This document shows positions 4,272 to 58,828 of a stretch of 64,000 nt of DNA, piece after piece. Positions within the stretch are counted from its first letter, which is position 1, and every line of letters begins with the position of its first letter. The position numbers and the translations under genes are program-made. The DNA comes from Romanomermis culicivorax (lineage: Eukaryota > Nematoda > Enoplea > Mermithida > Mermithidae): contig CAWUHX010000274.1 of the NCBI GenBank assembly GCA_963922205.1, positions 1 to 64,000 of the forward strand. The letters run 5' to 3'. Under the pieces are notes generated by a model. It was not told the DNA's origin, ran no database searches, and saw nothing but the letters and a program-made list of their open reading frames with translations.

Positions 4272-4918
4272 CACTGTTTTTTTCCACGAACTCTTTTCCA
4301 CAAATGTGGAAAGAGGTCAAAATTTTTTTCCACATGTGGAAAATTTTTTGACGACAAGTTTTCGCCTTAAAATCCTCGTTTTTTCGCTTGAAAATGCTCT
4401 TAAACGCTTTGTTTGAGTGTTTTTAACTTTTGAGCTTTTTAAAGCATTCTGTTAATCATTCTGAAAATATTATCTCAAAAATTAGATTCAAATTTTGTGT
4501 TCATAAATCGTAATTTCTATAAATTTATCATTCGAAAAATTTTAAAACCATTAATTTGTTCATCGTAGCCTTTCAGAAATTAGGCCGAAAAACTATCAGT
4601 CAGAAGGAGCGTAGAAATTTTCCAAAAATACTTCCATGAAGCTTTTGAATTGAATTTACGTTGAGAAAGGAACAAACGCTTCAAAAAATTTAGAAAGTTG
4701 ACGTGTTGCATCTTTCTCAAAAAATATATGAAGGAAAAAATGCGAATCTTCATTAAGTATAAAGATATAATTTAAGATTGCCAATTAAACATGAAATAGT
4801 ACGTTTGAGATGATGAAAACCCCAAAATTTTCTTCCACATTTGTGGAAAGACCTCAAAAATTTTTTCCGCATTCCAGATTTTTTTCCACATTATTAGTGC
4901 AAATGTGGAAAAAAAGTG
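4272..4918 (+). mobile_element. hAT-like MITE, CACTGTTTTTTTCCAC family
   Basis: Starts CACTGTTTTTTTCCACGAAC and ends ...GTGGAAAAAAAGTG. Several CCACANNTGTGG palindromes lie at both ends (for example CCACAAATGTGG and CCACATGTGG). The interior is shared with 18409-19334 and 6516-7278. The right tip is decayed and the flanking 8-mers (GTTGGGGG / GTTAATGG) match only partly. This copy lacks the GC hairpin near its right end. Confidence 0.75.
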
Positions 4919-5800: not shown

Positions 5801-6359
5801 ATTGTTTTTTTCCCGGACCTTTTCCCCAAGTGTGGGAAGGGATCAAAAATTTTTCCTCATTTTCCCGAGCTTTCTCCAACCTTCTGGTGTTTTTAGAGCC
5901 GTTAATTCGTTAAAATTGAGGAAAAAATTGAAATTTTCGCGTTTGATCGAAGTCTAATCTACAAGCACTGTTTTTTCCAAATTTTCATTATAATGTGGAA
6001 AAAAATCTGGAATGTGGAAAAATTTTCTGGGGTCTTTCCACAGACGTGGAAGAAAAATTTGGGGTTTTCATATTGAAAAGACGCATTTTAGTGCATTTTA
6101 AGAGGTCCAAATATCAAAATTTTTCGGCGCTTCGGTTATAACTTAAATAATCAAAGTAACCTTGGAAAAATTAGCAAATGTTGAAAAATATAATCATGTA
6201 TACATACGTACATACTGAGCAATCAACATTTTTCGTGTGATCCCTTCCATTCCACCATGGTGAAAATTTCTGAGAAAATATTGACAATGGTGCGCATCAT
6301 GCTTGCATTGAAAAAATTAGCATTCAGTTTAAGACGAATATTGAATGGTTTATACTTAC

Positions 6360-6455
6360 TGGCAGCATAACCTAGAAGGCATATCGGCGCGTACTCTAGT
6401 TTTTCGGCGAATCTAAGAACGCCACATTCGGATCGACAGAATATGGTTCTTTCGC
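6360..6455 (-). pseudogene. BBS9: Transduplicated copy of BBS9 exon 8
   Basis: Reverse-strand copy of the 96-bp exon at 19395-19490. It has the same length, 5 substitutions by hand count (about 95% identity) and no stop. Both splice sites are kept (TTCAG before, GTAAGT after). Protein changes include Leu to Arg in the ...IFCLSECG... segment and Thr to Ala in ...EYTPICL.... Flanking intron is also copied, as far as about 6151 (equivalent to about 19695). No other BBS9 exon is nearby, so it cannot make BBS9, but it could be recruited as an exon on the minus strand. Confidence 0.95.
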
Positions 6456-6515
6456 CTGAAGAAAAAATTCTTAACTGATTTGCTAAACACCGACTACCAA
6501 AAAAAGACGCAAGAC

Positions 6516-7278
6516 CACTGTTTTTTCCACATTTGCATTGTAATGGGGAAAAAAGTCTGCAGTGTGGAAAAAATTTGAGGTCTTTCCACAAACGTGGAAG
6601 AAAAATTTGGAGTTTTCATATTGAGTAGGTGCATTTTAAGAGGTCCAAATCTTAAAATTTCCTGGCGCTTCGCGCCGGTTATAACTTAAATAATCATCAT
6701 TATTTATTACCAAGCTCAGGCGCGGCTTTTGACATGTCTACCTTCACTTACCATTTAATCTTTAATATTTTTTATCATCTTAAATGTATTATTTCATGTT
6801 TAATTGGCAATCTTAAATATTATATCTTTATATTTAATGATGATCCGCTTTTTTCCTTCATAATTTTTTGAGAAAGATCAACACATCAACTTTTTAAACT
6901 CTTTGAAGCGTTTGTTCCTTTCTTAACGCAAATTAAATTTGAAAGCTTCATGGAAGTATTTTTGGAAAATTTCTACGCTTCTGACTCATAGCTTTTCGGC
7001 CCAATTTATGAAAGGTTACGAACAAATCAATGATTTTGAAATTTTTCGAATGATAAGTTTCTAGAAATTACAATTTATGGACACAAAATTCAAATCTAGT
7101 TTTTGACATGTTCAGGATGATTATCAGAATGTTTTAAAAAGCTCAAAAACGCTTAAATAAAGCGTTTATGAGCGTTTTCAAGCGAAAAAACGAGGATTTT
7201 AAGACGAAAACTTGTCAAAAAATTTTCCACGTGTGGAAAAAAAATTTGACCTTCCTCATTTGTGGAGAAAAAACAGTG
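6516..7278 (+). mobile_element. Inner MITE of the composite, CACTGTTTTTTCC family
   Basis: 763 bp, inverted relative to its source at 18409-19334. It keeps the subterminal CCACA/TGTGG palindromes, the hairpin GGCGCTTCGCGCC at 6664-6676 (about 150 bp from the left tip) and the CAAGCTCAGGCGCGGC block. It has several small deletions relative to the source. It carries one copy of the source's target duplication at 6508-6515. Confidence 0.88.
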
Positions 7279-7439
7279 TCTACAAGCATTGTGGTACAAA
7301 TTTTCCAGCAAATCATCCAAGAGCATAATGACTTTGAATTACATGAGAAATCGACGGTCAAGTCCTCTATGGTGATACCCGCTAATTTTTTTACATTCTT
7401 TCGGTTTTTCCAAAATCCACGCCGTGTACAATCAAACTA

Positions 7440-8756: not shown

Positions 8757-11700
8757 ATGGTAATTACTTTTCTAGCTATCACTCATTCTTGATATAATTA
8801 GGTAGTGGCTTCACTGTACCCTTTTAGGCGGCAATTTTTGGCTTCCAAATCGTTTTGACATTGATAACAGCAAGTGCTTTGCAAAAGTTGTCGTCACGCT
8901 ATTCTTTTGGTCGATGGATTTTATGTAGAAAGTAAGCTCTTTTCGTATCATACATGTAACCAAATGCCGAGGTCTGGAAGAGGGTTCAACGACTTTTGGG
9001 CTACCGAACATTTTAAGTAGGGGTCCCCTTAAAAAATTGGATTTTCCAGCCAAAAAAGTTTGAAAAATGATTAGGAAAAAGTTTTTTTTCTTTCAAAACC
9101 CGTAAAAAATTTATTTGTGGCGCGAAGCGCCATGCTCGAAAATTAACATTTTTTATGAAAAATGAACATTTTTCTGTTTTTTTTTCACCAAAAGTATGAG
9201 GGTCCATGAAGCACCATATGGCTAGCCGTGTAATTGGCAAATCCCGTGGGGGTCATCCAATAGCTAGCTATATGGTCGAAAGTTTAGAGGGTCCTATGAC
9301 ACGTCCCCCAGTCGGATGTATGTTTTGCTGTTGCTCCAAGACTAGTTTATTGCCTTTATTTTCTTTTTGCTCTTAGACTATTTTATTGCCTTTTTCCGAC
9401 CAACGATATGTTAAAAGCAGCTTTAAACCCAAACGGCTTGAAATCTACCAGGAGGAAAACGAAGGCTGACAGGTACATAAAAAATGAGCGTATCTGCCAA
9501 AACCAGTAAGTATGATTAATCATGCATTGCAGAAAAATTCAGGACAAAAGCGACGTTTTTTCTGTCCCCAAATATGTGGACATACCATTATTGTCGGTTC
9601 CGATAAAGTCGATCGATGTCTTACAACTCCCTTATTATGTAGAATATCGTTGGCTCATCGATTTCACATGTTACACGACCGTACTTTTTATCATTAGCGA
9701 AATATTCACCTGGTTATTCCCAATTTATTCTGCCAAAGAGCTTAATCTAAGCGTAGTTTGGGTATTTATTTGTTTGGCAATGGCAATGTAACAAGCTCCT
9801 TTTCGTTGCAAGATTTTAATGTTACATTCCGACATGTTTTCTTCAGGAAATCGTTAGCAATTGTTACCGCGTTATATTTTCGAGGTTTAGCGGTTAGTGG
9901 TGAACGTTCTTTGTGCCTTTCTTTCGGATCAGTTTGTTTCCTAATCACTATGGTTATATTTTTGATCAGCGATAGTTTATTGGACATTGGTTTAATGGAC
10001 GGTGAGTTTTACCGTTACAGTAATCTATCTAGAAACTTGTTATAATTTTGCACGGAATGATAGCTTGTGGAGGCAACCTATTCCCGCTACTCGGGGCTTC
10101 AGTAAAAATTTGGCTCGGTCCGGGACTTGAACCCGGGACCTTGCGGCTACAGTCTGCACGCTGTAACCAACTGAGCCAACGGAGCAACGGGGAAGTTTCT
10201 CTCAATTGCAACGACCGTCAAGGGCCACCAGTGTTGAGGCAACCTATTCCCGCTATTCGGGGAAAATAGAATGTTGAAGGGCTTCCTGGGTGGCGCTGGA
10301 GCTGTTCCACCATTGGCCATTGTCGGGGTAGGTCCGACCATCCCGACCGAGACTCAACAAAAATGGCCGGGTTCGGAACCCGTTCCTTGGAGCAACGGGG
10401 AGGTCCCTGGTACGGTCACCATTGTTGAACGGCTTCCTGGGTGGTGCCGGAGCTGTCCCACCACTGACCAATGTCGGGGTAGGTGTGACCATCTCGACCA
10501 GGGTTCAACAATAATAACCGGGTTCGGAACCCGTAGATTGGCTGAAACATCAATCCTACTACGCTACCACTACTCCCCTTTGTTATAGATTTCAGGGGAT
10601 TAATGCAGTGATAAAAATTTAATTTTCCATCGAGTATTGATGAAATTTTTAATCTCTCAAGACTTTGTTCAATATATTGACTGGAGAATAAAATAAAAAG
10701 GAGCATTTTCAAATTAGCCATATTTTAAATTACTATCGATAGGCAGCACCTGTTCTAGTCTCTCAGTGTCGTAGTCAAAAATTCGTTTCGGAGGATTTCA
10801 CTACAGATTTTCCGGCGAAAAATGTTACATTATTCCAAAAGTATTTTTCAATTATCTCTGATCGATCAGCATTTTTGTTCCAATTATACAAAAAAGTACA
10901 TTTCCGCAATATTTAATGGAAGGTCAGGTGTCCAGCTAATTCATACATGCAACGGGGCCCCGAGGTCTGGGGGGGAGAGGTCTCTCAAGGAAAAAAATCG
11001 ATATTCTCGAAAGAAGTCCAAAGAATAGTTCAAAAAATAGTAATTTTTTTCTAAAAAGACCGAAAAAATGTATTCATATCGCGAAGCGCCGCGAAAATTG
11101 ATATTTTTCATCAAGAAATTAGCATTTTTCAGTATTTTTCCGACCAAAAGTATAGGGATTCCTACGGCTACCATATGGCTAGCCATAGGATCGGAAAATC
11201 CTGGGGGGACGGTCGCCCAATGGCTAGCCATATGGTCGACGATTTCTGGGGGGGGGGGTGTTCTCATAGCCCTTCCCCCCAATTACATGAGCTAATTTGT
11301 CTGTGGCAGAAAAACGGAAAAGCCTGTTCTGTAGATTACGATAAATTTTTATTTGTCTTCAGCGCATCAAAATTTTACCAAGACAGCCGCAGAAATTTTA
11401 GAAAAGCACGATCTTCACGCACCGTGAGAATCCTATTGATTAACTTATCAAACTAATATGAAACGTTTCAATCTAAGCCCTTCTATTCACAGGAAAGAAA
11501 GATCACCAATTTTATTGTATTTCCTATTATCGTTGATGTTCGGATTCTTGGCTAGTTTTTTAACATTTCCTTGCCTTCGGTATTCTCGAATGTACAATGA
11601 TGCTTTAAGATGTTCATCATCCGAACCATTAAAAAGGTAAAAAAAACTGCTCGTATTGATTGGCTTGGCTCATTTTGATCCCGTTGAGAATCTACGAATA

Positions 11701-14700
11701 CTCATTTTTTTATTTTATATTAATTGTTAAAACCTTCTGTGCTATGCGAAAAAAAATCTTTCGACTTGAACGATCCCAGATTTTCATGTTTGGTTGATTC
11801 TTTTTGAGGAGATTTCAAGGTAAGTTTAAAGCTTTATTCAAGATTTGCCTGAATTTTTCAGATTCCTTGTTCACGTCGGTTTCTTTTCGCCTCTATTCGT
11901 TTTAGTCTTGTGGATTAAACCTCTGGCACACGATCATTTAGTTCACGGCGAAAAGGCAATGTAAGAGAGTGTATTATCGTATCTTATGTATTTAGCTAAT
12001 CTGTTAATCCGATGTGTAATCTGTTAATCCGATGTGGATATCTTTTCGTCGAAAAGAAATTTTCCGCGATGAAAATCTAGGAAAGTTTTCTGACCAAGCT
12101 ACAACACAGTCAGAAGTGTGATGTAGTGATTGTATAGCTAGGTGCAGTTTTTGTGTAACTTTTACTGAGAGTAATGCCAGCGATCTTGAGACTATAGATT
12201 TGGCCATAGGTCTACATCGACTTGTTTCTTAGCAATGTACCAATTATTGGAATATCAATGACTTTTCGGTTATGGTTTGCATTTCTATAGAGCAAGCAGT
12301 GCATCTTGTCTTGATTGTCTCCTATCCTTATCGTTCCATATGAATACAACAACCGATCAGAGCGGTATAATGCTATAATGCCTGAATCATTTTGAATGAG
12401 CAACGTCAGCATTATCCAAATTTCTGACCTTGTTTTAGGTTTTTTCCGCATGCCTCCATACGCACACGGAAATTCCTCCGTTCCAAGTTGAAATCATTCA
12501 AAAAATCCGTGAAAATAGCAGCGATTTGTTGAAGGGCTTCCTGGGTGGCGCCGTAGCTGTCCCACCATTGGCCAATGTCGGGGTATGTGTAACCATCCCG
12601 ACCAGGGCTCAACAAAAATGGCCGGGTTCGGGACCCGTGGATTGGCTACAACATCAATCCTACGGGTGGAATGTTGTATGTTGCCATACAACATCCCCCC
12701 CCCCCTTGGAGCAACAGGGGGCCCCCTGGTACGGTCACCAGTGTTGAAGGGCTTCCTGGGTGGCGCCGTAGCTGTCCCACCATTGGCCAATGTCGGGGTA
12801 GGTGTAACCATCCCGACCAGGGATCAACAAAAATGGCCGGGTTCGGGACCCGTGGATTGGCTACAACATCAATCCTACGGGTGGAATGTTGTATGTTGCC
12901 ATACAACAGATTGTAGATTACCAATAAAATCATCAGACATATCAATTTTTTCACATCAACTTTATTTTAGAATGATTGAGAAAGAGAAATAGTTGCTGTT
13001 GGTCTTTTTGTTATTACAGCTGAAAATTATAGATTTGAATTGATTCAATTTCTTGATTTTAATATTTAGAACGCTGTAAAATGAGTCTATTCAACCCTTA
13101 TCCCTCAAACAGAAGCTTTGCATTTGCGGTCGAAAATTGTGTATTGCTTTCCCTAATAATCAAATCAGTGTTCACAAAGTTCAGAAACTTCAAGCGAGAG
13201 ATCAAGTGAAGTGCCATAAAAAATTTCCATTTCGAAAAAAAATCCTAACCGTATACTGACAATCAGGCCTGTAGGCAGAGGGCCTGGGGGCAATGGCCCC
13301 CCGAAATGTTTGAAGTATTAAAAAAAGGCAAAAGTAGAAACCTTTGGTGTTTTTTGAAGTCAAGTCAGAAATGCCAATTTTACGGTAAACTGAGCGAAGA
13401 AAATGTGTGCCCCCTCCCGAAAAAAATTCCTGGCTACAGGCTTTCTGACGATTACTGCTTTATAAATGAGATGATAAGTTTAAATTGATAGTCCAAAGAT
13501 GGCGGTATTAAACAATTATAGCAAGAATGTGGGAAAAATCAACAAATACATATTCATTCCATTATCATCGTGTTTTCAAAGGAAGTATCACCAAAAATTC
13601 CCATTATCATCGTGTTTTCAGAGAAAGTGTCGAGTTTTACTCACATATAAGATGAGGTATATCAGATTCATGAAAGCAACCGATGATAACTGAGGAATGA
13701 AACTAAACTTTTTTTGGACTGTGCTTTAGCATAATTTTTGTGAATATCATAAATTTCTGTTATTACCGACAAGAAGAGCTAAAAAAACTGAGATTTTAAC
13801 CTCCTAAATTGCACAAAAATGCACGTTTTCATCAATGGCAACAGTAGAAACGTCCAAAATTCAGTTCTGTGCAGAAAATGCCCTCCGTAGAGCCAAAAAA
13901 AGTTCGCACTATGCAGAAAAAACCCTGCCCTGTTGGTTTCCTGAGGTAGTCTCCATTTATTTCATGCAGCATTCAAATTTTTTTATCTTGATAAAATAGC
14001 ATATCATTCGCATCAAATATCGTTTTTACTTACGTAGAATCAGTGTATTTTTCAGATTTACCTTGCCGCAATTTGAATCGTTCAGACTATGGGCTTGCCT
14101 TGTGGTCGTCTTGACACGTTTTTTATTGGCCAATGTTCATTTACAAGCATATTTGAATATGGCTCATGATAAAGTTAACGATCTGAGGAACGAAGGTGGT
14201 AGGATAACAAACATTGATTTACAAAAAATGGTAAATTTTTTTTATTTTTTGTCAAAATTTTGAAATATCTTTCTCATTAAGATCGCTCAAATTTTCTATT
14301 ATTTATGCGTTGTATCGATTCAATATTTTGCCCCATTTATATTGATTTTATCGTTGACATTCATTTTAAAGATTCTCGGTAAGTTTTTTTCAAGTCTTCA
14401 AATAGCTAATACAACTGACTGATGATTTCGTCGCAGTTATATACACACACCTGATCGTGAAGAGTTCCAATCTGAATGAATTATATGTGTAATGGAGTTC
14501 GAAGATCTGTGGTCATTATTGTTTAGACTTTACGGATAGGTTATTGGACAAAAAATATAAATTTTTTGCCTCATACGACTAGAAAATTGTTAAAAAATAG
14601 TTCTTGTGGTCTAAAAATCCATATAAATTCGGATTTATGCCGCGAAGTGCCGAAAAAATCCAAATTTTTCAAAAGCTTTGTTAGACAATGGCCATTTCCT

Positions 14701-15810
14701 ACAGAATATTGACATTTTTCAGATTTTCTTATTCCATGTGGTTGGGTCCCAATTAGTGATGTTCGTCGGATATCTGGCTATGAAAAAATATCCGGACATC
14801 CGAACCTCTACCATTGAAGCAGGATACTGTATATCGGGTTTCCTACTCTTGCTTGGCTTGGCAATCACTAAAACGATTCGGGAACCAACCAACTTTTTGG
14901 ATTGGCTGGTACCAGATAAACCGATAGGGTTTGTCCAGGTATGTATGTATGGCTCATAACATGTAATAACACGATGGGGCTTTACGAAAGATTGTAACAG
15001 CCAGCAATAGCTGAGGGCGATTTTTATGTGCTTTTTAGTGGTTTTTCATCATGGAATCTCTGAAGATTACAATAGATTTCACTTCCATATTCGTCTTCTT
15101 GAATGGTGTTGGATAGTGATCAATTTTTCAGTTATTATTGATCATCATAGAACTTCACAGATCAGTTGGTTCATTATGTTAGCACCCTAAGTTGTTTGAA
15201 TTGAGTATCATTCAAACATGTCGACGGAAAATTTCGCTGAGTAGTGATTCATATCTGTACTTGTGACCGGATTCTAGTTATGTGAGAAATGAACTAATGC
15301 GACTGTCAATTATCTGAATTACTCACAGCAGTGCCTGACCTACTAGGTGAAAAGTTTTACGTATTCAATGAAAAAACTATGTCCTATCACCGAAATAAAA
15401 ATGTGAATAAACCCAATGCTACCCGTTGTAACCATATTTGACGATTATTGAGAGTATTCCTGTGGCAACCCCAACACGTGTGATTTGATCTGAGTATAGT
15501 TTTATTTAGTATAGTTCCGCGATATTATGCTCATCTTTTAGGCCAGTACGCGTGGCTGGACGTCATTCAAACAGATTTATCTTTCACGCGATTAACAAAT
15601 CTTTTCGGTCAGTCTATAATTATAGAACAAGGAAATTTGACTTTATCGTCGTCTAGTCAATTATTAGCTCCATCCGTCTCACTTTTACGAACAATATTTA
15701 ACGTTGCTGTGAATCGAGCAGCTTGGAATTTTTTCCTCTTCTCGACGATTTTTATCAACTTCTTCGGCTCATTGGTGGGTGTCGTATATACTTCCAAATT
15801 TAAAGCTTGA
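8757..15810 (+). CDS. TMEM161B: TMEM161 family multipass membrane protein
   Basis: Coding segments: 8757-8759, 8828-8931, 9377-9472, 9533-9787, 9847-10001, 11363-11423, 11493-11636, 11862-11960, 14056-14230, 14282-14378, 15542-15810. They join in phase to 1458 nt (485 residues plus TGA), close to the vertebrate length of about 487. Family signatures in order: an N-terminal helix (FGFQIVLTLITASALQKLS), KTKADRK, VEYRWLIDF, SGERSLC, FLASFLTFPCLR, FFSPLFVLVLWIKPL, FRLWACLVV, LQAYLNMA, GRITNIDLQKM, QIFYYLCVV and a C-terminal helix pair. Vertebrate TMEM161B is linked to cortical folding and heart rhythm, and fly emei to ER calcium; the molecular activity is unsettled. The ATG|GT first exon is inferred from spacing and phase. 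Introns host SINEs, MITEs and an unrelated exon-like ORF. Confidence 0.93.
8948..9304. mobile_element. Decayed CATG-tipped MITE in TMEM161 intron
   Basis: A diverged copy of the element at 10942-11289. It shares CATACATGTAAC, GCCGAGGTCTGG, the hairpin GGCGCGAAGCGCC (9119-9131), AAAAGTATGAGG and CCATATGGCTAGCC...GCTAGCTATATGGTCGA. It lies in the 8932-9376 intron. Boundaries are approximate. Confidence 0.7.
10068..10560 (-). repeat. SINE-like GC-rich modules with tRNA-like head
   Basis: In the TMEM161 intron 10002-11362. A tRNA-like segment (10113-10185, minus) is bracketed by direct copies of GAGGCAACCTATTCCCGCTA (10072 and 10234). Two copies of a ~140-bp module follow (from about 10272 and 10430) with GGCTTCCTGGGTGGC, CCATTGGCC, TGTCGGGGTAGG, ACCATCCCGACC and GGCCGGGTTCGG. 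The same module is tandem at 12530-12910. GC content is far above the surroundings. Translations such as GDRTRDLPVAP are by-products of this repeat. Confidence 0.75.
10113..10185 (-). repeat. tRNA-like pol III unit (SINE head)
   Basis: On the minus strand a 73-nt tRNA fold is readable. The acceptor is GCTCCGT/ACCGAGC (one mismatch), the A box TGGCTCAGTTGG, the T arm CCGGGTTCAAGTCCCGG with a B box, and the anticodon loop contains CTGTAGC (GTA, tyrosine-like, if aligned as in tRNA-Tyr). Stem mismatches and the SINE setting argue for a tRNA-derived repeat rather than a working tRNA gene. Confidence 0.7.
10942..11289 (+). mobile_element. CATG-tipped MITE, TSD AGCTAATT
   Basis: 348 bp, from CATACATGCAACGGGGCCCC to CCCCCCAATTACATG. 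The perfect 8-bp duplication AGCTAATT is at 10934-10941 and 11290-11297. Inside are inverted CCATATGGCTAGCCAT/ATGGCTAGCCATATGG repeats and the GCGAAGC hairpin core at 11082-11088. It inserted in the TMEM161 intron between exons 5 and 6. Relatives: 8948-9304, 5167-5587 (inverted) and a single end at 31352-31385. Confidence 0.9.
12530..12910 (-). repeat. Two tandem SINE-like modules
   Basis: Two nearly identical ~170-bp units (about 12533-12691 and 12745-12909) are separated by a C run and TTGGAGCAACAGGG. Each ends in GTTGTATGTTGCCATACAAC, a small inverted repeat, and contains the GGCCGGGTTCGGGACCCG stretch. They are related to 10272-10560. They lie in the TMEM161 intron 11961-14055. The near identity of the two units points to recent amplification. 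Confidence 0.75.
13265..13446. mobile_element. Small CAGGCCTGTAG-tipped MITE
   Basis: Ends CAGGCCTGTAGGCAGAGG and GGCTACAGGCTTTCTG are inverted, with a CCTGGGGGCAATGGCCCCC stretch near the left end as in many non-autonomous hAT elements. Flanking TGACAATC / TGACGATT agree at 6 of 8 bases. It lies in a TMEM161 intron. The remainder of that intron (13450-14055) has only a lone CTGCAGAAAAAACCCTG end at about 13913-13928. Confidence 0.55.
14723..14938 (+). pseudogene. Orphan 72-codon exon-like ORF in TMEM161 intron
   Basis: Exactly 216 bp, open in phase 0, with a strong acceptor (ATTTTTCAG) and donor (CAG|GTATGT). It encodes two hydrophobic stretches (HVVGSQLVMFVGYLAM and YCISGFLLLLGLAI), then TKTIREPTNFLDWLVPDKP. 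It cannot join the flanking TMEM161 exons in frame, since the preceding exon ends in phase 1, and TMEM161 is complete without it. I do not recognise the family. A decayed hairpin motif (CCGCGAAGTGCCG) lies 80 bp upstream. It could be a captured exon, as with BBS9 exon 8, or a nested gene. Confidence 0.5.
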
Positions 15811-16270: not shown

Positions 16271-19200
16271 ATGTCCCTCTTCAAGACTAAAGAATGGTGT
16301 TCTACTCAATTAGGTAACGGACAGGAGGTTTTCGATACTGGTTGTTTATGCGTGGCAAATTTCAAGGTTGATGGATCAAAAACGAAAGGTTAGTGATTTA
16401 TGTGGATGCTAGTCATTCTTGGGTGTTAGAATAGACTTTAGAAAATAATCAAAAAGATAATGGACGCTCGTCACGGATGTCTTGATTCGGCTTGGAAAAA
16501 ATCAAGAATTTGGTATAAAAGCCAAAGAGCTCATCTGAGATGAAGTTTTATTCGAAAACTTTAGCGTAGATTGTGACAATTTTCGTGCTTGATTTTTCCT
16601 CCTGTCAGCATTGACAGCATGACTGAAATCAGACCGAAAAATTATTGATATCCTAGGATTTACTTCTCGTATAATTACAGTTTATGTTAGTTTGAATCTA
16701 AGCTGAATTGAAAATATTTATTATTTGTGTTTTCCAGCTGATTCCCTCTTTGTTTTCTAGAGACTGTTGTTGTTGGAAGTTTCGCAGGTGTCGTGCGAAT
16801 TTTCGATGTCAAGTTCGATGCCCAGGGCGATACATATCTACCACCTTCCGTGAACTTCAAATCCGAAAATTTATTGTGCGAAAAGTCATTGGAGTATCCT
16901 ATACTAGAAATATCGGACGGATATTTTGTGTCGTAAGTTTGAGGAATTTTCAGGATCTTTGTTTCGGAAAGAAATAAATTTCGGCAAATTTTTTATAGCG
17001 TGGCTCAAAATTGTATTCATTTGGCGATTTTGCATCCGAGGAAGTTGTGCGTCTATGCTTTCACAGGTACAATTTTCGTTATTGAACTGTTGGCATTGGC
17101 AACCATTTATGGTATGAGAAACTTGTAGAAATTGTCTACATCTGTCGGGAGTTTCCCTCGAGAAGCAGTAAAAATAAGACACGTTCGTGCCATCGGTGAA
17201 AAAAAATCAAAAAAAATCGTGAAAGTGACATATTAAACAAAAACTGGCACGAAAATTCAGACTTTCGTGTATCACGACCACTCGAAAAAATGAGAATTCA
17301 CACGATTAGCTTGAAGATCATTGATTTTTTAGAATATAGGCCGTTTAATATGATCAACATTCTTCAAATTGATTAGCACTGAACTTTCTTCTATGGACAA
17401 AATGAATCACTCGCTTCATTTTTCAAAAAAGCTCACTTGATCATATACGCATCGTACTTCTCATATTGGAATTCGGAATCAACTTTCTTGTCTTTTTTCC
17501 ACGTATATTCATCTGTCGCTCGCGTAGCAAAGTTATAACATTCAACATTCGAAATTTCTAGAGATTGCTACTGGAAAAGTTGAATACGGAAACCAGTATG
17601 ATCTGATGCTAATTTATGAACATAATCTATCAAGATCGGCGTACAGTATGATTTGCGGACCGTTTGGAGGTGTAATCGGTAAGGTCTCAAATCTATGGAT
17701 TACATTAAGGACGATTTTGTTATGATGTTTTGTCAAGATTTTCACTCAACATTTTTTTCAGGTAGGGATTACATATGCGTGCAGTCTTTAGACTGTACAG
17801 TGACATTTTACGAAGAAGAAAACGTAGCTTTCTCTAGATTTTTACCCAATGCGCTTCTACCTGGACCATTGGCTTACGTCCCAAAAACAGATAGCTTACT
17901 TACTGCTTCGTCTCTGTGGCAAATCGAAAGTTATAAGTAAGGAATGGAGAGAACATCGATCATTATGTCTTTTTTAAAAAGCTATAAACGCTTCTGATTT
18001 TTTCAAGATACCAATTTTTAGCCGTAGCCGCCGATTCAAAAACAAAAGAAGAAGCTAGTACGCTGACTGCGGGCAAACGGGTTACGGTAAGAAAAATTGA
18101 TTGATCTAGAACGATGTATAAAGTCCGTTTTATTCTTTGTTTAATGCAGCAAAATACCAAGGCACAAACATCTGCTTGTATGCTGAAAATTTAGGCTTCC
18201 CGCACTTTTTAATAGTTTCAATTTCAATTTTCTTGTTGTATCAATGTTCATCAATTCTTCAGGTCGATTGGTCATATAATACAGGAGAACCTGTCATTCA
18301 AATAGTTGTTATAGACATAGCGCCAGCACCATTGTCAATTTTAGCTTTAGGTAAGCATATAGACTTTGTCACAGGAATATTCGACAGTAATTCAATGTGC
18401 GTCTTCCGCATTGTTTTTTTTCCACGAACTTTTTTTGTCAAATGTGGCAAGAGGTCAATTTTTTTCTATATGTGGAAAATTTTTCGGCGAAAAGTTTTCG
18501 TCTTAAAATCCTATGAGCTGCTAAGGAAACACGTAAATATATGACTAGAAATTACAACGAAACGCCTCATCCCACTTTTTTTTCCGGTTGGCTTTCTCCC
18601 CAAATAGGGAACAGGGTCGAAAAATTTGTCTCCATTTTCCAGAACTCGTTTTTTCGCTTAAAAATGCTCATAGACGCTTTATTTAAGTATTTTTTAGCTT
18701 TTTAAAGCATTCTGATGATCATTTTTTTGAACATATATATCTCAACTTCTCAACAATTAGATTTGAATTTTGTTTTCATAAATTGTAATTTCTAGAAATT
18801 TATTATTTAAAAAATTTTAAAACTAGTAATTTATTCGTAACCTTTCATAAATTTGGACGAAAAGCTATGAGTCAGAAGCGTAGAAATTTTCTAAAAATAT
18901 TTCCACGAAGCTTTTGACTTCAATTTAGGTTAAGAAAGGGACAGACGCTTCAAAAAGTTCGAAAGTTGACGTGTTAATCTTTCTCAAAAAATGTATGAAG
19001 AAAAAAATCCGGATCTTCATTACATATCAAGATATAATATTGAAGATTGCCAATTAAACATGAAATAATACGTTTAAGAGGATGAAAACTATCAAAGATT
19101 AAATGGTAAGTGAACGTTAGACATGCTAAAAGCCGCGCCTGAGCTTGGTTATAAATTATAATGATTATTAAAGTTTTAATCGGCGCCAAGCGCCGGAAAA

Positions 19201-22200
19201 TTTTGAGATTAGGACCTCTTAAAATGCACCAAAATGCATCTTTTCAGTATGAAAACCCCAAATTTTTTTTCACATTCGCGGAAATACCTCAAAATTTTTT
19301 TCCACATTATAGTGCAAATTTGGAAAAAACAGTGGTCTTCCGTCTTTTTTTGCTAGTCGGTGTTTAGCAAATCAGTTTAGAATTTTTTCTTCAGGCGAGA
19401 GAACTATATTCTGTCTATCCGAATGTGGCGTTCTTAGATTCGCCGAAAAATTAGAGTACACGCCGATATGCCTTCTAGGTTATGCTGCCAGTAAGTATAA
19501 ACCATTCAATATTCGTCTTAAACCAAATGCTAATTTTTTCAATGCAAGCATGATTCGCATCATTGTCAATATTTTCTTAAAAATTTTCACCATCGTGGAT
19601 GGGATTACACGAAAAATGTTGATTGCTCAATATGTACGTATGTACATGATTATGTTTTTCAACATGTGCTCATTTTTCCAAGGTTACTTTTATCAAATAT
19701 TTTTCAATGTTTCTAATCGTTGTTATTCGTTTCTGCATTCGTAATTTGTTGTTCGTGCAGAACAGCAAGATCATTTTCAAATTTGGAAGAATCCCGAGTG
19801 ACAGTAGTGACGTGCATTTTCTGTCATTTCCGTGAGGATATTTTCGTAAAAATGAATGTAGTGGTAGTCTCTAATACATATTTCCAATGGATACCATTTA
19901 AGATTAGCTGACTTGATTCGAAGCTTCAATATTTTCAGCCTACGAAGGGTACGTTCAATATTTGGTCGCAACGCAGACGCAAACGTTGTTACTTTACGTG
20001 GATACTACTCTAAGATGGGCTGCGCAAATGCCCAGAATGCCAGTTTGCTTGGACGTGCTGCATGAGAGGTACGTGTATTTTTGCATATTATAGCCACATA
20101 GTACATACATAGCCTTACTTTCCGCAGTCCTTTGCGTGGAATATTGGTGTCTGTTAGCGATGATGGACGTCTCGATTGGTCTTACCTCGGCACCGATCCT
20201 GCTTTTTACGGTATCCCCAACCCAGAAGCCGTCCACGTAGATTATAATAAGCGCCGCCAAGAATTTAAACGTTTTCAAGCCATTGTGCGGAAAGCTAATC
20301 AAAAGAATGGTATGTCACATGTCATTAAGGAAACACAGATTTACATGCGAAAAAATTTATTTAGTATAAAAAAGTTCTTCGATTGTGTTTCAAAATCTAG
20401 CTTGTACTTAATATGCCCTCGATAGTGTATCTTTTTGTTTCAGCTAGTTTACATATATGCTAAAAGTCTAGACGATGCATCCTTGTTATATGTAGATATA
20501 CATATAGTATAATAAAATTTAGTTTGTACTCTGGTAGCGTATACCTAATACCTATAGCAACCACTATCTTTCAAGATATATGGCTCCTAGTTTTGGGAAC
20601 TATTTGTGAAGAATACTTTTAGGAGAAGCTGGCTCATTCTTTCCATAATATTGTGGAACTTTGAATGTGGGAACTGAAATTTTTCCGAATTTTGAACCAT
20701 TTGTGTAACAAAACCCATCAGTTCTTCAGGTGTCCTAAAAAGCACTCCTTCGGTAGAAATGGTGTCAATCAAATGCGAGATACCCCAACATTTGGATTCC
20801 GTTTCGGTAGGTTGTCTTGACTAAACGTTATAACTTTTTTAGATTAATTTTTTTTAACTTTAAGTTAGCATACGATTCCGAAATTGAAGAAAGTATTCCT
20901 TCTTTGACAATGAGAGTAAATCCATAATCATGCTTCATGTGCTTCATTTCTAATTGATTTCTGAAAATTTTATTGTTATAGATCTGCGTCTTTTGTAAGA
21001 CGAATATGGATAATATGCAAATAAATGTTTTCCTGCCTAACGTTATTGGTGCTCAATCAACTTCGTTTGTAATTGAAAATGTTGGTAAACTTTAAGCAAC
21101 TTTTACATGTATAGCATGAATATTTTTTAAAATAAAATTTATGTTGAAGTTCATATCAAAGAGAATTTTCAGTATGTGTCCATTAGTTGTCGGCTGATCA
21201 CAATTATCTCCTAGGACAATCTTTCGAAATTCCGATTACAATGTTCATGAAATATTTGCTCGTTCCAACATCATTAACAGGATACGTGCAAGCGGTCTAC
21301 AAGCTTCCTAGTGGTATATTTCTCGCACATTGTGTCTCTGTTGATTTGATATTTTGTCGAATCCAAGCTTCGAGAAAATATTAAACACCCCACTATTAAA
21401 CATTGACTGATATACTATAGCTGTATTGAAAATCTTACTGCTTTTTTCGATTTTTTCAATTTGTTAACATTCGTCATTTAATTCCAGTTCCATTATAGGC
21501 ACTTCAAATGTCATTGAAACCGATTTCTTACTCCCCTTAATATTGATATCCAAGCTAACACAATTCCAAAAATCTTGCCAATGTCGAATTACTCTTGGTG
21601 TCAATAAAGTTGTAAATAATTTATTTGATTTGTTTCCCGGTAAAAATGTGGTGCAAACAATCGAAGGATTTTATAGGGCATCTTTCTTTCAGAATTTGGA
21701 GAAAATGAGAACGAAACGAGCCTCAATTTCCGAATCTTCGGACATAATCAGAGTGTCGTTGGCATTTCAGTGTCTGCTCAGAACAGTAAGAAAGTTTTAT
21801 TTAGTGATCTTCTTATTTCTTCGATCGAGTCAAATTAAAGGAGTAGCTTTGTCACGCCCATACTCAAGCAATAAGGAAAATTTCGTGGAGGTCTACATTC
21901 GACCACTGGTTAAGCCCCGTCAATTCCCATATTTGTGTTTAGCGCCGATTCCACTCCCTGAAGAAAGTCAAGTTCATGAGAGTTTTTTATGGATTCTGTT
22001 AAGGATTCCCAAGCGTCGTTAAAGACTATAGATAGATGGGGTTTTACTTCATTAAAAATTGAGATACAATTTTTTGAACCAGATCTATCTATTGATTTCC
22101 TATGTTTGCTTTGTTTTGGAACAGTAATATTTCTGAACGTCTTCAATAGCTGCTTTTGTTATTGATGTTCGTCAGATATTTTTTGACATCCGGATGCTCG

Positions 22201-39024: not shown

Positions 39025-39279
39025 GGCATAGCGGGTGGCACTAAAACCCGGATCGGGTCCACGGATCCGGATCCGGATCGGGTGCCTAAAACCCGGATCA
39101 CCACGGATCGGCGGATCGGGGGTTTTGCTCGTTAAAACACCGTTTTAGGTGTCTAAAACCCGGATCACCACGGATCACGGCGGATCAGACCGGTGATCCG
39201 GATCCGTGGAAAATACGTCTAAAAGCCGGATTTTCATCGCGGATCACCCCCACGGATCGGGGTCCAACATATTAATTTT

Positions 39280-50545: not shown

Positions 50546-50818
50546 TTCCGGATCAAAAATTAATATGTTGGACCCCGATCCGTGGGGGTGATCCGCGATG
50601 AAAATCCGGCTTTTAGACGTATTTTCCACGGATCCGGATCACCGGTCTGATCCGCCGTGATCCGTGGTGATCCGGGTTTTAGACACCTAAAACGGTGTTT
50701 TAACGAGCAAAACCCCCGATCCGCCGATCCGCCGATCCGTGGTGATCCGGGTTTTAGGCACCCGATCCGGATCCGGATCCGTGGACCCGATCCGGGTTTT
50801 AGTGCCACCCGGCATAGC

Positions 50819-52057
50819 TGGTTTTTTTGTATAATGGGCATTTGCATGAGTTTTGATAAGATAAAGAGATAGGGCCTTGTTTGCACAAGGCTCGTATTGA
50901 GTAATTGTTATGTTGTTTAGAATTTTGATGTTTCTCGGAATGACGACTAACAATGAGGAAAAGTGAAGGCATGACTGGAACAAATAAAGCATTACTCACA
51001 TATCTGATGAATGAAGAAAGATGCAGTATCCTGGTCGAAAACAAACGAAGAAAATATAAACTAAAATTTTGTATATAATGAAAGCAAAAACACATTTTAC
51101 ATTATTCCGAAAAATGAGACATTTCACTCCTCATGACACATTGATGCCACGCTGATTAGGACAAGCACCTACTTAACCGGGCGGCGAGCTCTTTGACTTT
51201 CGGATTTTGCTCTCATCTGAACAAAGATGTTACCGAAAACTGCAAATACTCTTGCCTTTTATCGTTCTTGAAGCTGCTATCCTGCACTTGACTTACTGCT
51301 AAGACAACATCAGGTCATAGAAACGTGTTTGGACCTACTTTGCATTTTGATAGTTTTTCCACATTCATATCTCTATTGTAAATTATGCATTCACAATCTA
51401 TAGTCTCTTGAATAAAAAAGTGGAATGCAAGTATCATTTTATACTCCTATAATTTCCTGCTGTACGATGCGTCCTAGGATTGGAATTTTTTTGAGCCTGC
51501 TCAACTATCCTCACAAATTTTTTTTACGCCAAAAATCCTACAGTAAACGGTTTGTGTAAACGACTTTGAGGGCACTATATTTTTTGTCCATTTTTCAACT
51601 TACACACAGTTATAAAGAAACGAACTACGAATTCCAATCCTCCTGAAAATATATTTTTGAAAACGTCATTAACGATACCTCTGGGATAAAATTACATGAA
51701 AAACCTCATTGGAAAAATTTTCGAGTGCATGGTCAAAACTTATCAATCATGGATTTTCCAGAATGTATGATGAATTCCTCATCAAGAGCATCCGTACACG
51801 TGGGGGGTTGGGGGTATTGACCCCCAGCAGATTCTTGCTGACGTCCAGCAGATTTGACCTACGATGATACACAACAGGAGCAATCGTGCATTCTCCTAAG
51901 GCTTGATGTTGTTTATCCAAGTCACGGGCCCAGGCCTGGATTTTTGTGATGGATATTGCTGCATTCGCAACAGGCGATGCAAGGCTGTGCAGTTGGTGGT
52001 AGAGCAGCTACCGTCCAGTTTCCGAGAACCAGAACCCTTACATATTTAAGATCTTAA
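50819..52057. other. Intergenic, LINE 5' flank
   Basis: No host exon is seen. 51400-51660 is a distant relative of the TA-MITE family. From about 51785 the DNA becomes more GC-rich and is probably the LINE's 5' region, but no ORF1-like frame is present, so the element is 5'-truncated or its ORF1 has been lost. Confidence 0.45.
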
Positions 52058-55000
52058 ATGAGTAAGGCTTTACAGGTGGCCACATTAAACTGTGCAGGGC
52101 TGACTAAAAATGACCTGAAAGTTTGTCAAATTTATGAACAAAGCAAAAATTTTGATATTTTAGCAATACAGGAAACACACTACAAGAATCATAGAGATTC
52201 CTTCGGGTTTAGGAATACCTTTGGTAAAAGTTTTGTAACTAAATTGTCCTTTTCACCTTTTGAACATTCTGCAGGAATAGCTTTGTTAGTTAATCTTTTT
52301 TCCAGACTGAAAATTGAGAGAAAAATTTTTGAAATTAAGGGTCGAGCTTTTGCGTTTATCTGCAAAGTTGAGAAAAAAGTTTTTTATATATTGGTACTCT
52401 ATGCTCCAGCAAATGAAACTCAAAGAAAACCGTTTTATGAGAAACTCTACCAGGACATTTCGACTAATTTTCGACATCATGATGAAATTTTAGTACTAGG
52501 TGATTTTAATTTTGTTGAAAATAGAGATCTAGATCGAAATTCCTTAAGAAATTCTAGGCAAGAAGAAACTGGTGCCGATATTTTTGAGTTGATTAAAAAT
52601 AAATTGAATCTTTTGGATGTTTTTAGATTTCATAACCCAAAGTTAAAGTTGTTCACCCATGTTTCACATGCTCATAAAACTGGTTCTCGAATCGATAGAA
52701 TTTATTCAAGTCGACTACTTGCTGATGCTTACAAGTCACACAGTGTAATTGATTTTACAATCAGTGATCATAAATGTTTTGTTATTAAATTTAACACAAA
52801 ATTTCTTAATGTCAAAATTGGTCCATCCTTTTGGAAAATGGATATAAGTCTTTTAGAAACAAAAGATCAAAAGTTGAATGATTTGATCAACAGTACTTTT
52901 TTAAAGCTTTTGAATAGAGTGAATAGTGAGTCTGCTGAAAATCCACTGGATAAATGGGAAAATTTTAAAGTTGATTTGAAATGGGAATTTGCCCAAATTA
53001 AAAGGCAAGAACAAAAAATTTTGTGTCAGAAGAAAATAAAACTTGAGAGCAGGATAAATATGCTACAAGACAGAATAAGGGAAAGACCAGGAAATCTTGA
53101 ATTTTTGAAATCTTTGAAAGAGAGCAAAAATGAATTTAAAGTTTTAACTAAATCTGACATTAAAGCCAAATTAAGGAAAACACATTACCAAGATATTCTC
53201 TCTGATAGAGTTTCTCTTGCAACAGCAAAAATGTTGCAAAAGAGATCTGCTGAAAATAGAATAATATCCAGCATTAAAAAGCAAGATGGTACTCTTTTGG
53301 AAGATCAGTTGGAAGTCTTAAGCGAATTCAATAATCAGTATTGTACACTTTATACATCAACTATTGAGGACACAAATAAGAAGACTTCCTTCTTTGATGT
53401 CAAGCCTCCTAATGCAGTAGACAAAAGTGACAATCAAGATTTTGAAAAAGACATCTCTGAAACTGAAGTAAAACTTGCTATAAAATCCTTTAAAAAGGGA
53501 AAGTCTCCAGGTAGCGATGGTCTCCCTATAGACTTTTATCTAAAATTTTTGGATCAACTAGTTCCTGTTTTAAAAAATGTTTACATGAACATGTTTAAAG
53601 AAGGTAAACTTTGTGAGTCTATGTATCACAGTATCATCTCTCAAATTTATAAAGGAAACAATAGTGACAAAACTGAGAGAAGCAATTGGAGACCAATTTC
53701 GATGTTAAATGTTGACTATAAAATTTTGGCAAAAATTCTAGTTAATCGTCTTAAAAAAGTTATGCCTAAAATTGTTCATCAAAATCAAACATGTGCAGTA
53801 CAAGGAAGAGACATTAGAGATGGCTTGATTGTCATTTACAATGCAATCAATTATGTAAATGAGAAAGACCTAACTGGAATTTTACTTTCAGTGGATCAAA
53901 TGTCTGCTTTTGATATAATAGAATGGCATTTTGTATTTCGATTATTAGAGTATTTTAATTTTAGTTCAAATTTCATAAGGTGGATAAAAATGATATACAA
54001 AAGTGGATATGTAACTTCGTCTTTATTGATTAATGGTTATGAAACGTTCCCTTTCAAAATCAGTCGAGGAATTAGGCAAGGTTGTCCTCTTTTAGCTTTA
54101 ATCTATGTTTTGGTTTCTGAGGTACTTTGTAATTTTATTAGAAGGGATAAGTTAGTTAATGGAATAAAAATTTTAAGCCAATCAGTAAAACTATGCAATT
54201 ATGCTGATAACACAAACTTCTTTGTTGGAGATTTTCAATCAGTACAAAGAATCTTTCAAATATATGAAATGTTCCAAAAGATTAGTGGTGCAACTCTAAA
54301 AAAAACAAAGACAAAAATTTTACTTTTTGGAAATGCTGTAAATATCCAGGTTCCCGATATTTATAAAGAATTTATTGTAGAAAAGATTAAAATTTATGGA
54401 ATCTATTTCGATAAACTAGGCACTAGCAGTCTAGAAAACCTTAATGGTATTTCTCACGAATTTGAGAAGATTAAAACAAAAACTATTAGTTTTAATGTTT
54501 CCTATTATGCACTAGCAAAAATAATTGATACATATTATCTCTCCAAGTTATGGTATGCATCCATTTTTTGTAAGGTCTCACCAGGTTTCGTAAAAAATAT
54601 TGAACGTTCTTCTGCAAGTTTTATTTGGTCAACTTTTAGCCCAAAGAGTTTGGTTGCAATTAAAACGTTAAAACTACCTGTAGAATTGGGAGGCATAAAT
54701 CTTACTGATGTTCCTGCGAAAATTGAAGCCATGAGCTTGATGCTTTTACTCAGATACAGAAGGTTGAAAATGACGGACATGCAAATTTTTGAATACTTTT
54801 ATGAAAAAGTTAGAAATGCATCTAAAAGGCGATTGAACACACTAAATGTTCCAGAATTGTACAAAAAAATTAGATTAGCAGAAATTAAAACTGGTCTCAG
54901 ACACACAGATAAAAACGAAGTTATCCTGAATAATGAAGTGATCAGTTTGGATAAAGTAACCACAAAACTGTTGTATTTTTTCATTAGAAAAGGAAATTTG

Positions 55001-55615
55001 ACAAATGAAAAGCCAATGTCCTATTGGGTAATAAATTTAAATGAAAGTTTATTGGATATAAATAAACTTTTAAGCTTATCGAAGTGCAAATTTTTGGATG
55101 GTGGTACAAGAAATCTTCACTTTGCAATTGTACACCGGTTACTTCTAACTAGATCCAAAATTAATCATATGAATAACTATCAAGATCCGAACTGTAAATT
55201 TTGTATATCACAAAATGAGTCTTGTAGAGAAGATATTTTGCATGCAATAGTCTTATGCCCAAGATTGACAGATTTTTGGGTAAAGATTGTACAACTTTTG
55301 AAAAAAATTTATAAAAATTTCAATGTAGATATACTCAATTTTGTCTTTGGTTTGAAACTAGATTCTTGTAGTAAGGAACAACTGACTTTTGCCAATATTG
55401 TCTTATGTATGGCACAAAATTGTATATGGTTGACAAGACAACGGTATGAAAAGAATGATAGTTTGGTAGATATTTGGGAGTTGTTTAGGAAAAATATGCA
55501 AAAAACTGTGCTTCGACTTTTTGAAATCATGGACCAAAAAGCTTTTGAGAAATACTTTTTGAAGCATAAGATTGTGATAATCAGTAAGCTTGATAAACCT
55601 GTGATTAATTTTTGA
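52058..55615 (+). CDS. Tx1/L1-like LINE ORF2: endonuclease-reverse transcriptase
   Basis: 1185 uninterrupted codons. The N-terminal APE-type endonuclease shows VATLNCAGL (Asn11), QETH (Glu39), LGDFNF (Asp149, Asn151), GSRIDRIY (210-216) and SDHK (Asp237, His238). The reverse transcriptase follows: SPGSDGLP (483-490), WRPISMLNVDYK, LLSVDQMSAFD (Asp613, motif A) and RGIRQGCPL. The catalytic box at 715-718 is YADN, not YADD. A CCHC motif is at 1046-1067 (C-x2-C-x12-H-x4-C). The order and WRPISL-type block fit the L1/Tx1 clade. It would nick target DNA and copy its own RNA, but Asn718 replaces a metal ligand and probably abolishes or cripples synthesis. No ORF1 is found upstream. A short A run at 55829-55843 may be the 3' tail. 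Confidence 0.96.
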   Translation: MSKALQVATLNCAGLTKNDLKVCQIYEQSKNFDILAIQETHYKNHRDSFGFRNTFGKSFVTKLSFSPFEHSAGIALLVNLFSRLKIERKIFEIKGRAFAFICKVEKKVFYILVLYAPANETQRKPFYEKLYQDISTNFRHHDEILVLGDFNFVENRDLDRNSLRNSRQEETGADIFELIKNKLNLLDVFRFHNPKLKLFTHVSHAHKTGSRIDRIYSSRLLADAYKSHSVIDFTISDHKCFVIKFNTKFLNVKIGPSFWKMDISLLETKDQKLNDLINSTFLKLLNRVNSESAENPLDKWENFKVDLKWEFAQIKRQEQKILCQKKIKLESRINMLQDRIRERPGNLEFLKSLKESKNEFKVLTKSDIKAKLRKTHYQDILSDRVSLATAKMLQKRSAENRIISSIKKQDGTLLEDQLEVLSEFNNQYCTLYTSTIEDTNKKTSFFDVKPPNAVDKSDNQDFEKDISETEVKLAIKSFKKGKSPGSDGLPIDFYLKFLDQLVPVLKNVYMNMFKEGKLCESMYHSIISQIYKGNNSDKTERSNWRPISMLNVDYKILAKILVNRLKKVMPKIVHQNQTCAVQGRDIRDGLIVIYNAINYVNEKDLTGILLSVDQMSAFDIIEWHFVFRLLEYFNFSSNFIRWIKMIYKSGYVTSSLLINGYETFPFKISRGIRQGCPLLALIYVLVSEVLCNFIRRDKLVNGIKILSQSVKLCNYADNTNFFVGDFQSVQRIFQIYEMFQKISGATLKKTKTKILLFGNAVNIQVPDIYKEFIVEKIKIYGIYFDKLGTSSLENLNGISHEFEKIKTKTISFNVSYYALAKIIDTYYLSKLWYASIFCKVSPGFVKNIERSSASFIWSTFSPKSLVAIKTLKLPVELGGINLTDVPAKIEAMSLMLLLRYRRLKMTDMQIFEYFYEKVRNASKRRLNTLNVPELYKKIRLAEIKTGLRHTDKNEVILNNEVISLDKVTTKLLYFFIRKGNLTNEKPMSYWVINLNESLLDINKLLSLSKCKFLDGGTRNLHFAIVHRLLLTRSKINHMNNYQDPNCKFCISQNESCREDILHAIVLCPRLTDFWVKIVQLLKKIYKNFNVDILNFVFGLKLDSCSKEQLTFANIVLCMAQNCIWLTRQRYEKNDSLVDIWELFRKNMQKTVLRLFEIMDQKAFEKYFLKHKIVIISKLDKPVINF

Positions 55616-57885: not shown

Positions 57886-58828
57886 ACGACAAAATTTTTT
57901 GGAAAAATTAGGATATTAGTGACTATGCTACGGGCAAATCTGTCGGCTCATCTGGCTACCATTCAACTTGTGTCCGCACTATTCATCAGAATGTGAAACT
58001 TATGTTAATGGCTACTTCATTGAACAGTGGCTACAAAAGTATAATGAGCAAGATTGAAGCTGTCACCAGTGTTTTTTTCTGCACCGGGCTTTCTGCACAG
58101 TGCAGAAAAGCGAAAAAAAGGTTTCTGCACTGCGGTTTTCTCCTGTTACCACTGTTTTTCCCCCGCGCCTTTTCCCCAAACATGGGAAGGGGTCGAAATT
58201 TGTTTCCCCATTTTCCCGAAGTCGTTTTTCGCTTAAAACTGCTCATAGACGCTTCATTTATGTATTTTCGAGCTTTTTCAAAAGTTTTTTAGTTTGATCG
58301 AAGTCTAATCTACAAGCGTTGTGAAACAAACTTTCCAGCAAACTATCCAAGAGCTTAATGACATTGAATTACATTAGAAATAGATGGTAAAGTCCACTAT
58401 AATGACAAGTGAGAGCCCAAAAAAGATATTAATCTTTCCGGTGCTGAGCGTCGAAATTTTTTTTTGGGTACTGACATTCCGCGACGCTGGAAATCAATTT
58501 TCGAGCATTTATTTCAAGAATTAAATTCGAATTTTGTGTTCAAAAGTCATAATTTCTAGAATTTTATTAGCTGAAAAATTTTCAAAGCAGTAATTTATTA
58601 GTAAAATCTCATAAACTTGGCCGAAAAGATATGAGTAAGAAGCATAGAAATTTCCTAAAACTAACTTCCATGAAGTTTTTGGATTGATTTTATGTTAAGA
58701 AAGGAATAATCGATTTTAAAAGTTTACAGACTTGACGTATGTATATTGATCTTTCTCAAAAAATGTGTCAAGGAAAAAAATGCGAATCTCCATTAAATAT
58801 CAGGATAAAATATTGAAGATTACTAATT

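Follow-up and report, generated by a model that had tools for sequence, protein, structure and literature searches.

The closest described relatives of the locus reported here are the animal Pack-TIRs, of which Tan et al. 2021 described 370 in 100 animal genomes, 208 of them assigned to hAT (PMC8277862). Among 281 animal Pack-TIRs in the same survey, 160 have a parent within 15 kb and 190 show microhomology at one or both breakpoints. Their filler has a median length of 224 bp and is 13.4% exonic, and transposition-independent gap filling was inferred for most of the single-copy Pack-TIRs (PMC8277862). In our judgement, captured gene fragments seldom keep evidence of the route by which they were captured. 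In the window analyzed here, that is, the whole stretch of 64,000 nucleotides from contig CAWUHX010000274.1 of the nematode Romanomermis culicivorax, a donor, its product, an empty site and the target duplication belonging to the donor transposon all lie together, which allows an argument about the route at the level of single bases.

The product is a composite in which a MITE stub and a complete inner MITE stand on either side of a reversed piece of the gene BBS9 (Table 1). The outer terminal inverted repeats (TIRs) of this unit, CACTGTTTTTTC and GAAAAAACAGTG, are complementary at 12 of 12 positions. The original prediction gave the unit a perfect target-site duplication (TSD) of its own, and TCTACAAG is indeed found on both sides (8/8, 5958-5965 and 7279-7286). 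This outer duplication is real, since a paralogous repeat shows the empty site with one TCTACAAG. When the flanks of the composite were joined with a single TCTACAAG, they matched 58150-58400 in one blastn alignment (73% overall), most strongly over 109 bp at 58292-58400 on the plus strand (88%), and a single TCTACAAG sits at 58309-58316 inside this related repeat at 58.3 kb. The stretch 58292-58400 is an empty site for the composite insertion, in a paralogous repeat. We also noted that the related MITE at 58150-58828 has a 228-bp internal filler (58283-58510), within which lies this 109-bp match (88%) to the surroundings of the composite insertion site; the filler is possibly another capture, or an older repeat in common.

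At the left joint, the stub (5966-6153) aligns to 6516-6696 of the inner MITE (82%) and to 19334-19162 of the donor MITE (77%). Base 6153 is compatible with both the MITE and the BBS9 sides, which gives a 1-bp overlap at the stub/BBS9 joint, no more than chance often yields. At the right joint, the inner MITE is preceded by CGCAAGAC at 6508-6515, and the donor MITE, read on the minus strand, has CGGAAGAC on both sides; the inner MITE therefore retains the target duplication from the BBS9 intron, as had been proposed. The source segment (19343-19689) adjoins the donor MITE. The BBS9 piece had been put at ~365 bp, and it is inverted as described, with a size of 354 bp plus the 8-bp duplication. 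Otherwise, the coordinates and counts of the original prediction proved right.

Table 1. Features of the composite, its donor locus and a third member of the MITE family (positions are those of the window).
Feature	Position	Strand	Remarks
Left target-site duplication TCTACAAG	5958-5965	+	8 bp, perfect
Composite unit	5966-7278 (1,313 bp)		Small non-coding DNA transposon holding a reversed BBS9 piece
MITE stub	5966-6153	+	First 188 bp, including the left terminal inverted repeat
Captured BBS9 segment	6154-6507 (354 bp)	-	Intron-exon-intron; reverse of 19343-19689
Copied BBS9 exon	6360-6455 (96 bp, 32 codons)	-	Symmetric (phase 1-1); splice sites retained at both ends
Copy of the donor MITE target duplication, CGCAAGAC (donor: CGGAAGAC)	6508-6515	+	8 bp
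Inner MITE	6516-7278	+	Complete, both terminal repeats
Terminal repeat, 14 bp	6516-6529	+	Identical in composite and donor; putative switch region
Right target-site duplication TCTACAAG	7279-7286	+	8 bp, perfect
Donor MITE in BBS9 intron	18409-19334	-	Flanked by GTCTTCCG (+) at 18401-18408 and 19335-19342
Source segment of the captured piece	19343-19689 (347 bp)	+	
Source BBS9 exon	19395-19490	+	
Third family member	4272-4918	-	Among those compared, nearest to the inner MITE body

The source of the captured piece can be identified through the retained target duplication, and the donor gene through phmmer and Pfam, both in line with what had been predicted. The joined open frames at 16.7-19.5 kb matched the PTHB1 chain 4yd8 (phmmer E = 3.6e-42), as well as 6vbu and 6xt9, and the Pfam domain PHTB1_N (E = 7.7e-64); by this homology the donor gene is confirmed as BBS9/PTHB1. 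It lies about 12.8 kb from the composite. A chance match is excluded because blastn aligned 6150-7194, which contains the BBS9 piece, to 19693-18645 with E = 0.0. Positions 6155-6507 align to the donor over 346 columns with 20 mismatches (5.8%) and 2 gaps totalling 7 bases.

Counted in the alignment, the exon copy differs from its source at 5 of 96 bp, has no indel and keeps both splice sites, exactly as first described. Three of the differences are silent and two change an amino acid. The AG and GT are retained, the 3' site reading ...TTTTTTCTTCAG before GCG and the 5' site reading GTAAGTATA after CCA, and the cores of both the acceptor and the donor splice site are unchanged. The copied exon corresponds to the stretch aligned with GERNFFCLKDNGQI.FMKKLD.SPSCFLPY in the PTHB1 chains 4yd8, 6vbu and 6xt9, and one of its changes replaces a Leu that is kept in the donor and in these three chains. 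The minus-strand open frame that spans the copy (6226-6615) matched PHTB1_N weakly (E = 0.00094), its 19.4 bits falling short of the 28.6-bit cut-off. We saw no constraint on the exon copy, since exon and introns have diverged alike from the donor (5/96 and 15/250), five changes being too few for a formal test of selection. Judged from these counts, the exon shows no sign of protection and was most likely carried along as a passenger. Since it is symmetric (phase 1-1) and keeps its splice sites, splicing into a transcript of the minus strand is conceivable in principle. An mRNA-mediated retrocopy was set aside: a DNA-mediated capture is supported by the alignment because the copied BBS9 piece includes introns.

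Between the composite and BBS9, and upstream of the latter, lies a TMEM161-like gene (Pfam PF10268) on the plus strand at 8831-15807, for which 3 of 10 scanned stretches reached the Pfam cut-off. The earliest TMEM161 exon that we found is at about 8831-8926; it is preceded by an AG and does not open with an ATG, which means that the start codon must lie in an exon farther upstream. The position of the composite may thus be within the first TMEM161 intron or ahead of the whole gene, and under either placement the copied BBS9 exon is antisense to TMEM161. No minus-strand gene that could serve as an exon-trapping host was found in a Pfam scan covering two minus-strand stretches of the region, a coverage too small to argue against one. 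Other features of the window include an open LINE-type frame of 1,185 residues at 52058-55612, with an Exo_endo_phos endonuclease and an RVT_1 reverse transcriptase; a direct repeat at 12527-12693 and 12742-12908 (98.8% over 167 bp), far less diverged than the MITEs; and a repeat at 39090-39272 and 50563-50907, on opposite strands, with almost the same translated peptide (ending ...AGFSSRITPTDRGPTY).

Upon comparing the two parts that composite and donor locus have in common, we found that the MITE part is the more diverged. Over 6516-7190, the inner MITE mismatched the donor MITE at 83 of 656 columns (12.7%), against 20/346 for the whole BBS9 part (Fisher p = 0.0006) and 15/250 (6.0%) for the BBS9 introns (Fisher p = 0.004). 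CpG columns were diverged at 17 of 53 positions in the MITE and at 3 of 30 in the BBS9 part. With these columns removed, 10.9% in the MITE still stood against 5.4% in the whole BBS9 part (p = 0.005), and we therefore rejected the idea that decay of CpG sites by itself explains why the MITE is more diverged. In a changepoint scan of the 1,014 aligned columns, divergence stepped up after position 6529, with a support interval of 6469-6587 and a permutation p of 0.0075 (2,000 permutations). This best point coincides with the final base of the 14-bp terminal repeat that is identical in both copies; such a scan tends to halt just before a mismatch, so that the interval outweighs the point and does not fix the switch to the base.

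Comparison within the MITE family also set the inner MITE apart from the donor MITE. In the same 498 columns, the inner MITE had 46 mismatches to the element at 4272-4918 and 63 to the donor MITE; in a 414-column subset the counts were 39 and 52, and of 5,000 bootstrap replicates 4% put the donor at an equal or smaller distance. The donor MITE was taken as 18412-19334 in these family alignments, and the columns compared are unaffected by its true end at 18409. In a quartet with the element at 58149 as outgroup, nine sites grouped the composite with 4272, five grouped it with the donor and one grouped the donor with 4272, a set too small to decide by itself. Left-end quartets gave conflicting counts of 0 to 7 sites per pattern. 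The inner MITE body is thus apparently not co-derived with the donor MITE.

Pairwise family distances over at least 159 columns ranged from 9.2 to 13.2%, above the BBS9 divergence of 5.8%, and those in the 77-column left end ranged from 7.8 to 14.3%. For two of these distances the excess over the BBS9 value was not significant: p = 0.07 (whole BBS9 part) or 0.16 (introns) for the composite and 4272-4918, and p = 0.065 or 0.09, respectively, for the composite MITE and the stub, which differ at 17 of 159 columns (10.7%). Since the BBS9 divergence lies below the family distances, the comparison suggests that the capture postdates the spread of the family elements.

The donor MITE itself has an unusual right end. 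It carries about 135 bp that are missing from the composite: first sequence resembling the right end of the related 58149 element, then 63 bp. At this right end (18409-18650) the donor MITE seems to end twice, with a first right-end type, the 63 bp, and then a second type beside the target duplication. The first right end is 80% identical to 58149-58281 over 135 bp including common body, a similarity that rests on alignment and was not recovered by a short-match search, and for the 63 bp at 18510-18572 no other match within the window exceeded 13 bases. This right end may be a second repair-made chimera. We counted 37 private changes in the donor MITE, 24 in the composite and 20 in the element at 4272-4918; with its chimeric-looking right end and this excess of private changes, the donor MITE looks rewritten.

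How, then, did the BBS9 piece come to lie inside a MITE? We favor, with moderate confidence, a Pack-TIR-type capture during break repair inside a resident element. A non-autonomous TIR element would have inserted at TCTACAAG, and a later break in or beside this resident element would have left a transposon end. The left terminal repeat of the broken end would have paired with the tip of the donor MITE, where the same 14 bp occur, and synthesis would have run outward, through the donor target duplication and then through a BBS9 exon with intron on either side, some 350 bp in all. Once released, the extended end would have been joined, with an overlap of about 1 bp, to the left-end MITE stub at 6153. 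The structure of the unit, its donor, the empty site and the divergence step near the terminal repeat are observed; we infer the break, the direction of synthesis and that the event took place at the present site rather than before a move. The junction between target duplication and terminal repeat must originate at the donor locus, whereas the MITE body need not. Since composite and donor have this junction in common, the inner MITE is of donor origin at its tip at least, which is a point against the repair model. If the stub and the inner left end had belonged to one resident element, a difference of about 6% would be predicted between them, against the 10.7% observed, a difference that is not significant; two resident elements may be needed, which is a weakness of the model.

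Transposon capture of the BBS9 exon agrees with the original prediction, whose further claim, that the whole unit had moved, is not supported in that form: had all parts left the donor together, the inner MITE should match the donor MITE as closely as the introns match theirs, but divergence is 12.65% in the inner MITE and 6.0% in the introns (p = 0.004). A plain copy-and-move of the entire unit is probably not what happened, because its inner MITE diverges more than its BBS9 piece, the step falls near the terminal repeat and the MITE body is somewhat closer to a third copy. The main rival is the view of the original prediction, and it is rather unlikely, in our estimate, that two MITEs flanking the BBS9 exon acted as a composite transposon, whose outermost ends moved the unit into TCTACAAG while a stub-less donor allele survived and had its MITE gene-converted later by a different copy. 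The perfect outer TIRs and TSD would also be expected after such a whole-unit move, the empty site is present, the junction with the donor target duplication is retained, and the chimeric-looking right end of the donor MITE hints at rewriting, by which the mismatch could be reconciled with a move. Nevertheless, no stub MITE was seen at the donor locus near 19689, the inner MITE is twice as diverged as the BBS9 piece with a step near the terminal repeat, and one allele would have to be lost and almost all of the donor MITE converted afterwards. The same signs of rewriting count against the repair model that we favor: since the donor MITE looks rewritten, both parts could have been captured together in the ordinary way, with the extra divergence accumulating later on the donor side.

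The divergence, the affinity to the third copy and the changepoint led us to reject a wholly common derivation of the inner and donor MITEs at an equal rate. A capture of 6154-7278 from the donor at once would need MITE sequence to mutate twice as fast as a BBS9 intron. The junction of target duplication and terminal repeat common to both loci is what it would leave, and CpG columns are indeed more diverged in the MITE (17/53 vs 3/30), but the gap persists outside CpG (10.9% vs 5.4%, p = 0.005) and a third, non-donor element is nearer to the composite than the donor is, such that we regard this course as improbable. As for an assembly duplication, a haplotig join or a segmental duplication unrelated to the transposon, the two loci do lie 12.8 kb apart in one window. 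However, the similarity does not end away from the transposon tips: on one side the BBS9 match stops at the target duplication and terminal repeat, on the other at the MITE stub. Moreover, the copies have diverged by 5.8%, only 1 of 12 candidate BBS9/TMEM161 exon stretches (limits approximate), namely this exon, has another copy in the window, and there is an empty site with one TSD; an origin of this kind seems very improbable indeed.

We tentatively raise the possibility, doubtful as it is, that capture of flanks primed by terminal repeats is a recurrent habit of this MITE family. If so, synthesis running outward from the tip of one copy, annealed to that of another copy within a gene, would carry off the target duplication of the latter together with neighboring host DNA, and each retained foreign target duplication would date and place one capture; the right end of the donor MITE would then be a second product of the same process within these 64 kb. 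In any case, genomes can be searched for a foreign target duplication next to a terminal repeat in the interior of an element, and this signature could help to separate repair-made from transposition-made captures genome-wide.

The composite had been called hAT-like, and its 8-bp TSDs (TCTACAAG, and CGGAAGAC at the donor MITE), 12-bp TIR and CACTG ends do fit hAT. The hAT TSD consensus is nTnnnnAn for Ac and nnnTAnnn for Buster. By eye, TCTACAAG and CGGAAGAC fit neither, with two sites only to go by and a third group present within hAT, and this misfit does not exclude hAT. Described hAT elements have TIRs of 10-25 bp and 8-bp TSDs, and the primers used for BuT2 carry CAGTG/CASTG (PMC3942097). 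In the P superfamily, TSDs are 8 bp for P elements and 7 or 8 bp for Galileo, and the 8-bp TSD of the composite is compatible with that superfamily too. A Pfam scan of 15 stretches gave no match to a DNA-transposon transposase, and an exact 25-base MITE pattern had 0 matches in the viral contigs of IMG/VR, where a eukaryotic repeat is not expected.

MULEs have long TIRs and 9-11-bp TSDs. With its 8-bp TSD and 12-bp TIR the composite differs from a Pack-MULE, although, like Pack-MULEs and plant Pack-TYPE elements (PMC8903248), it is a non-autonomous DNA transposon with a gene fragment. The C. elegans Turmoil-1 transduplication is likewise an animal transposable element with incorporated coding sequence, but in Turmoil-1 it is the inverted terminal repeats that hold the pieces (PMC2572040), whereas here the piece lies between a stub and a complete MITE. 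A TIR element with a captured gene piece and a TSD is also known from Xenopus as Pack-hAT-N8_XT, for which three copies with three distinct TSDs are evidence of movement (PMC8277862), evidence that the present composite does not offer.

The likeness to animal Pack-TIRs is closer. Here, too, a TIR element with its TSD surrounds a short host segment: the unit is bounded by TIRs and a TSD (12/12 and 8/8, with the paralogous empty site), and its internal non-transposon segment, 354 bp of BBS9, has a parent at 19343-19689. The piece is exonic and of the same size order as the Pack-TIR median of 224 bp (PMC8277862), and its parent lies in cis at less than 15 kb (12.8 kb), with homology at the breakpoints (14-bp identity at the terminal repeat on one side and a 1-bp overlap at 6153 on the other), as gap filling would lead one to expect. 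Unlike in those elements as described, the filling comes from directly beside a related MITE and takes in the target duplication of that MITE, which points to one switch point at the common terminal repeat. A retained foreign target duplication appears to be a less usual signature, one that we did not meet in the sections of PMC8277862 on Pack-TIRs, a comparison narrower than a dedicated literature search. On the features examined, the composite fits the animal Pack-TIR kind.
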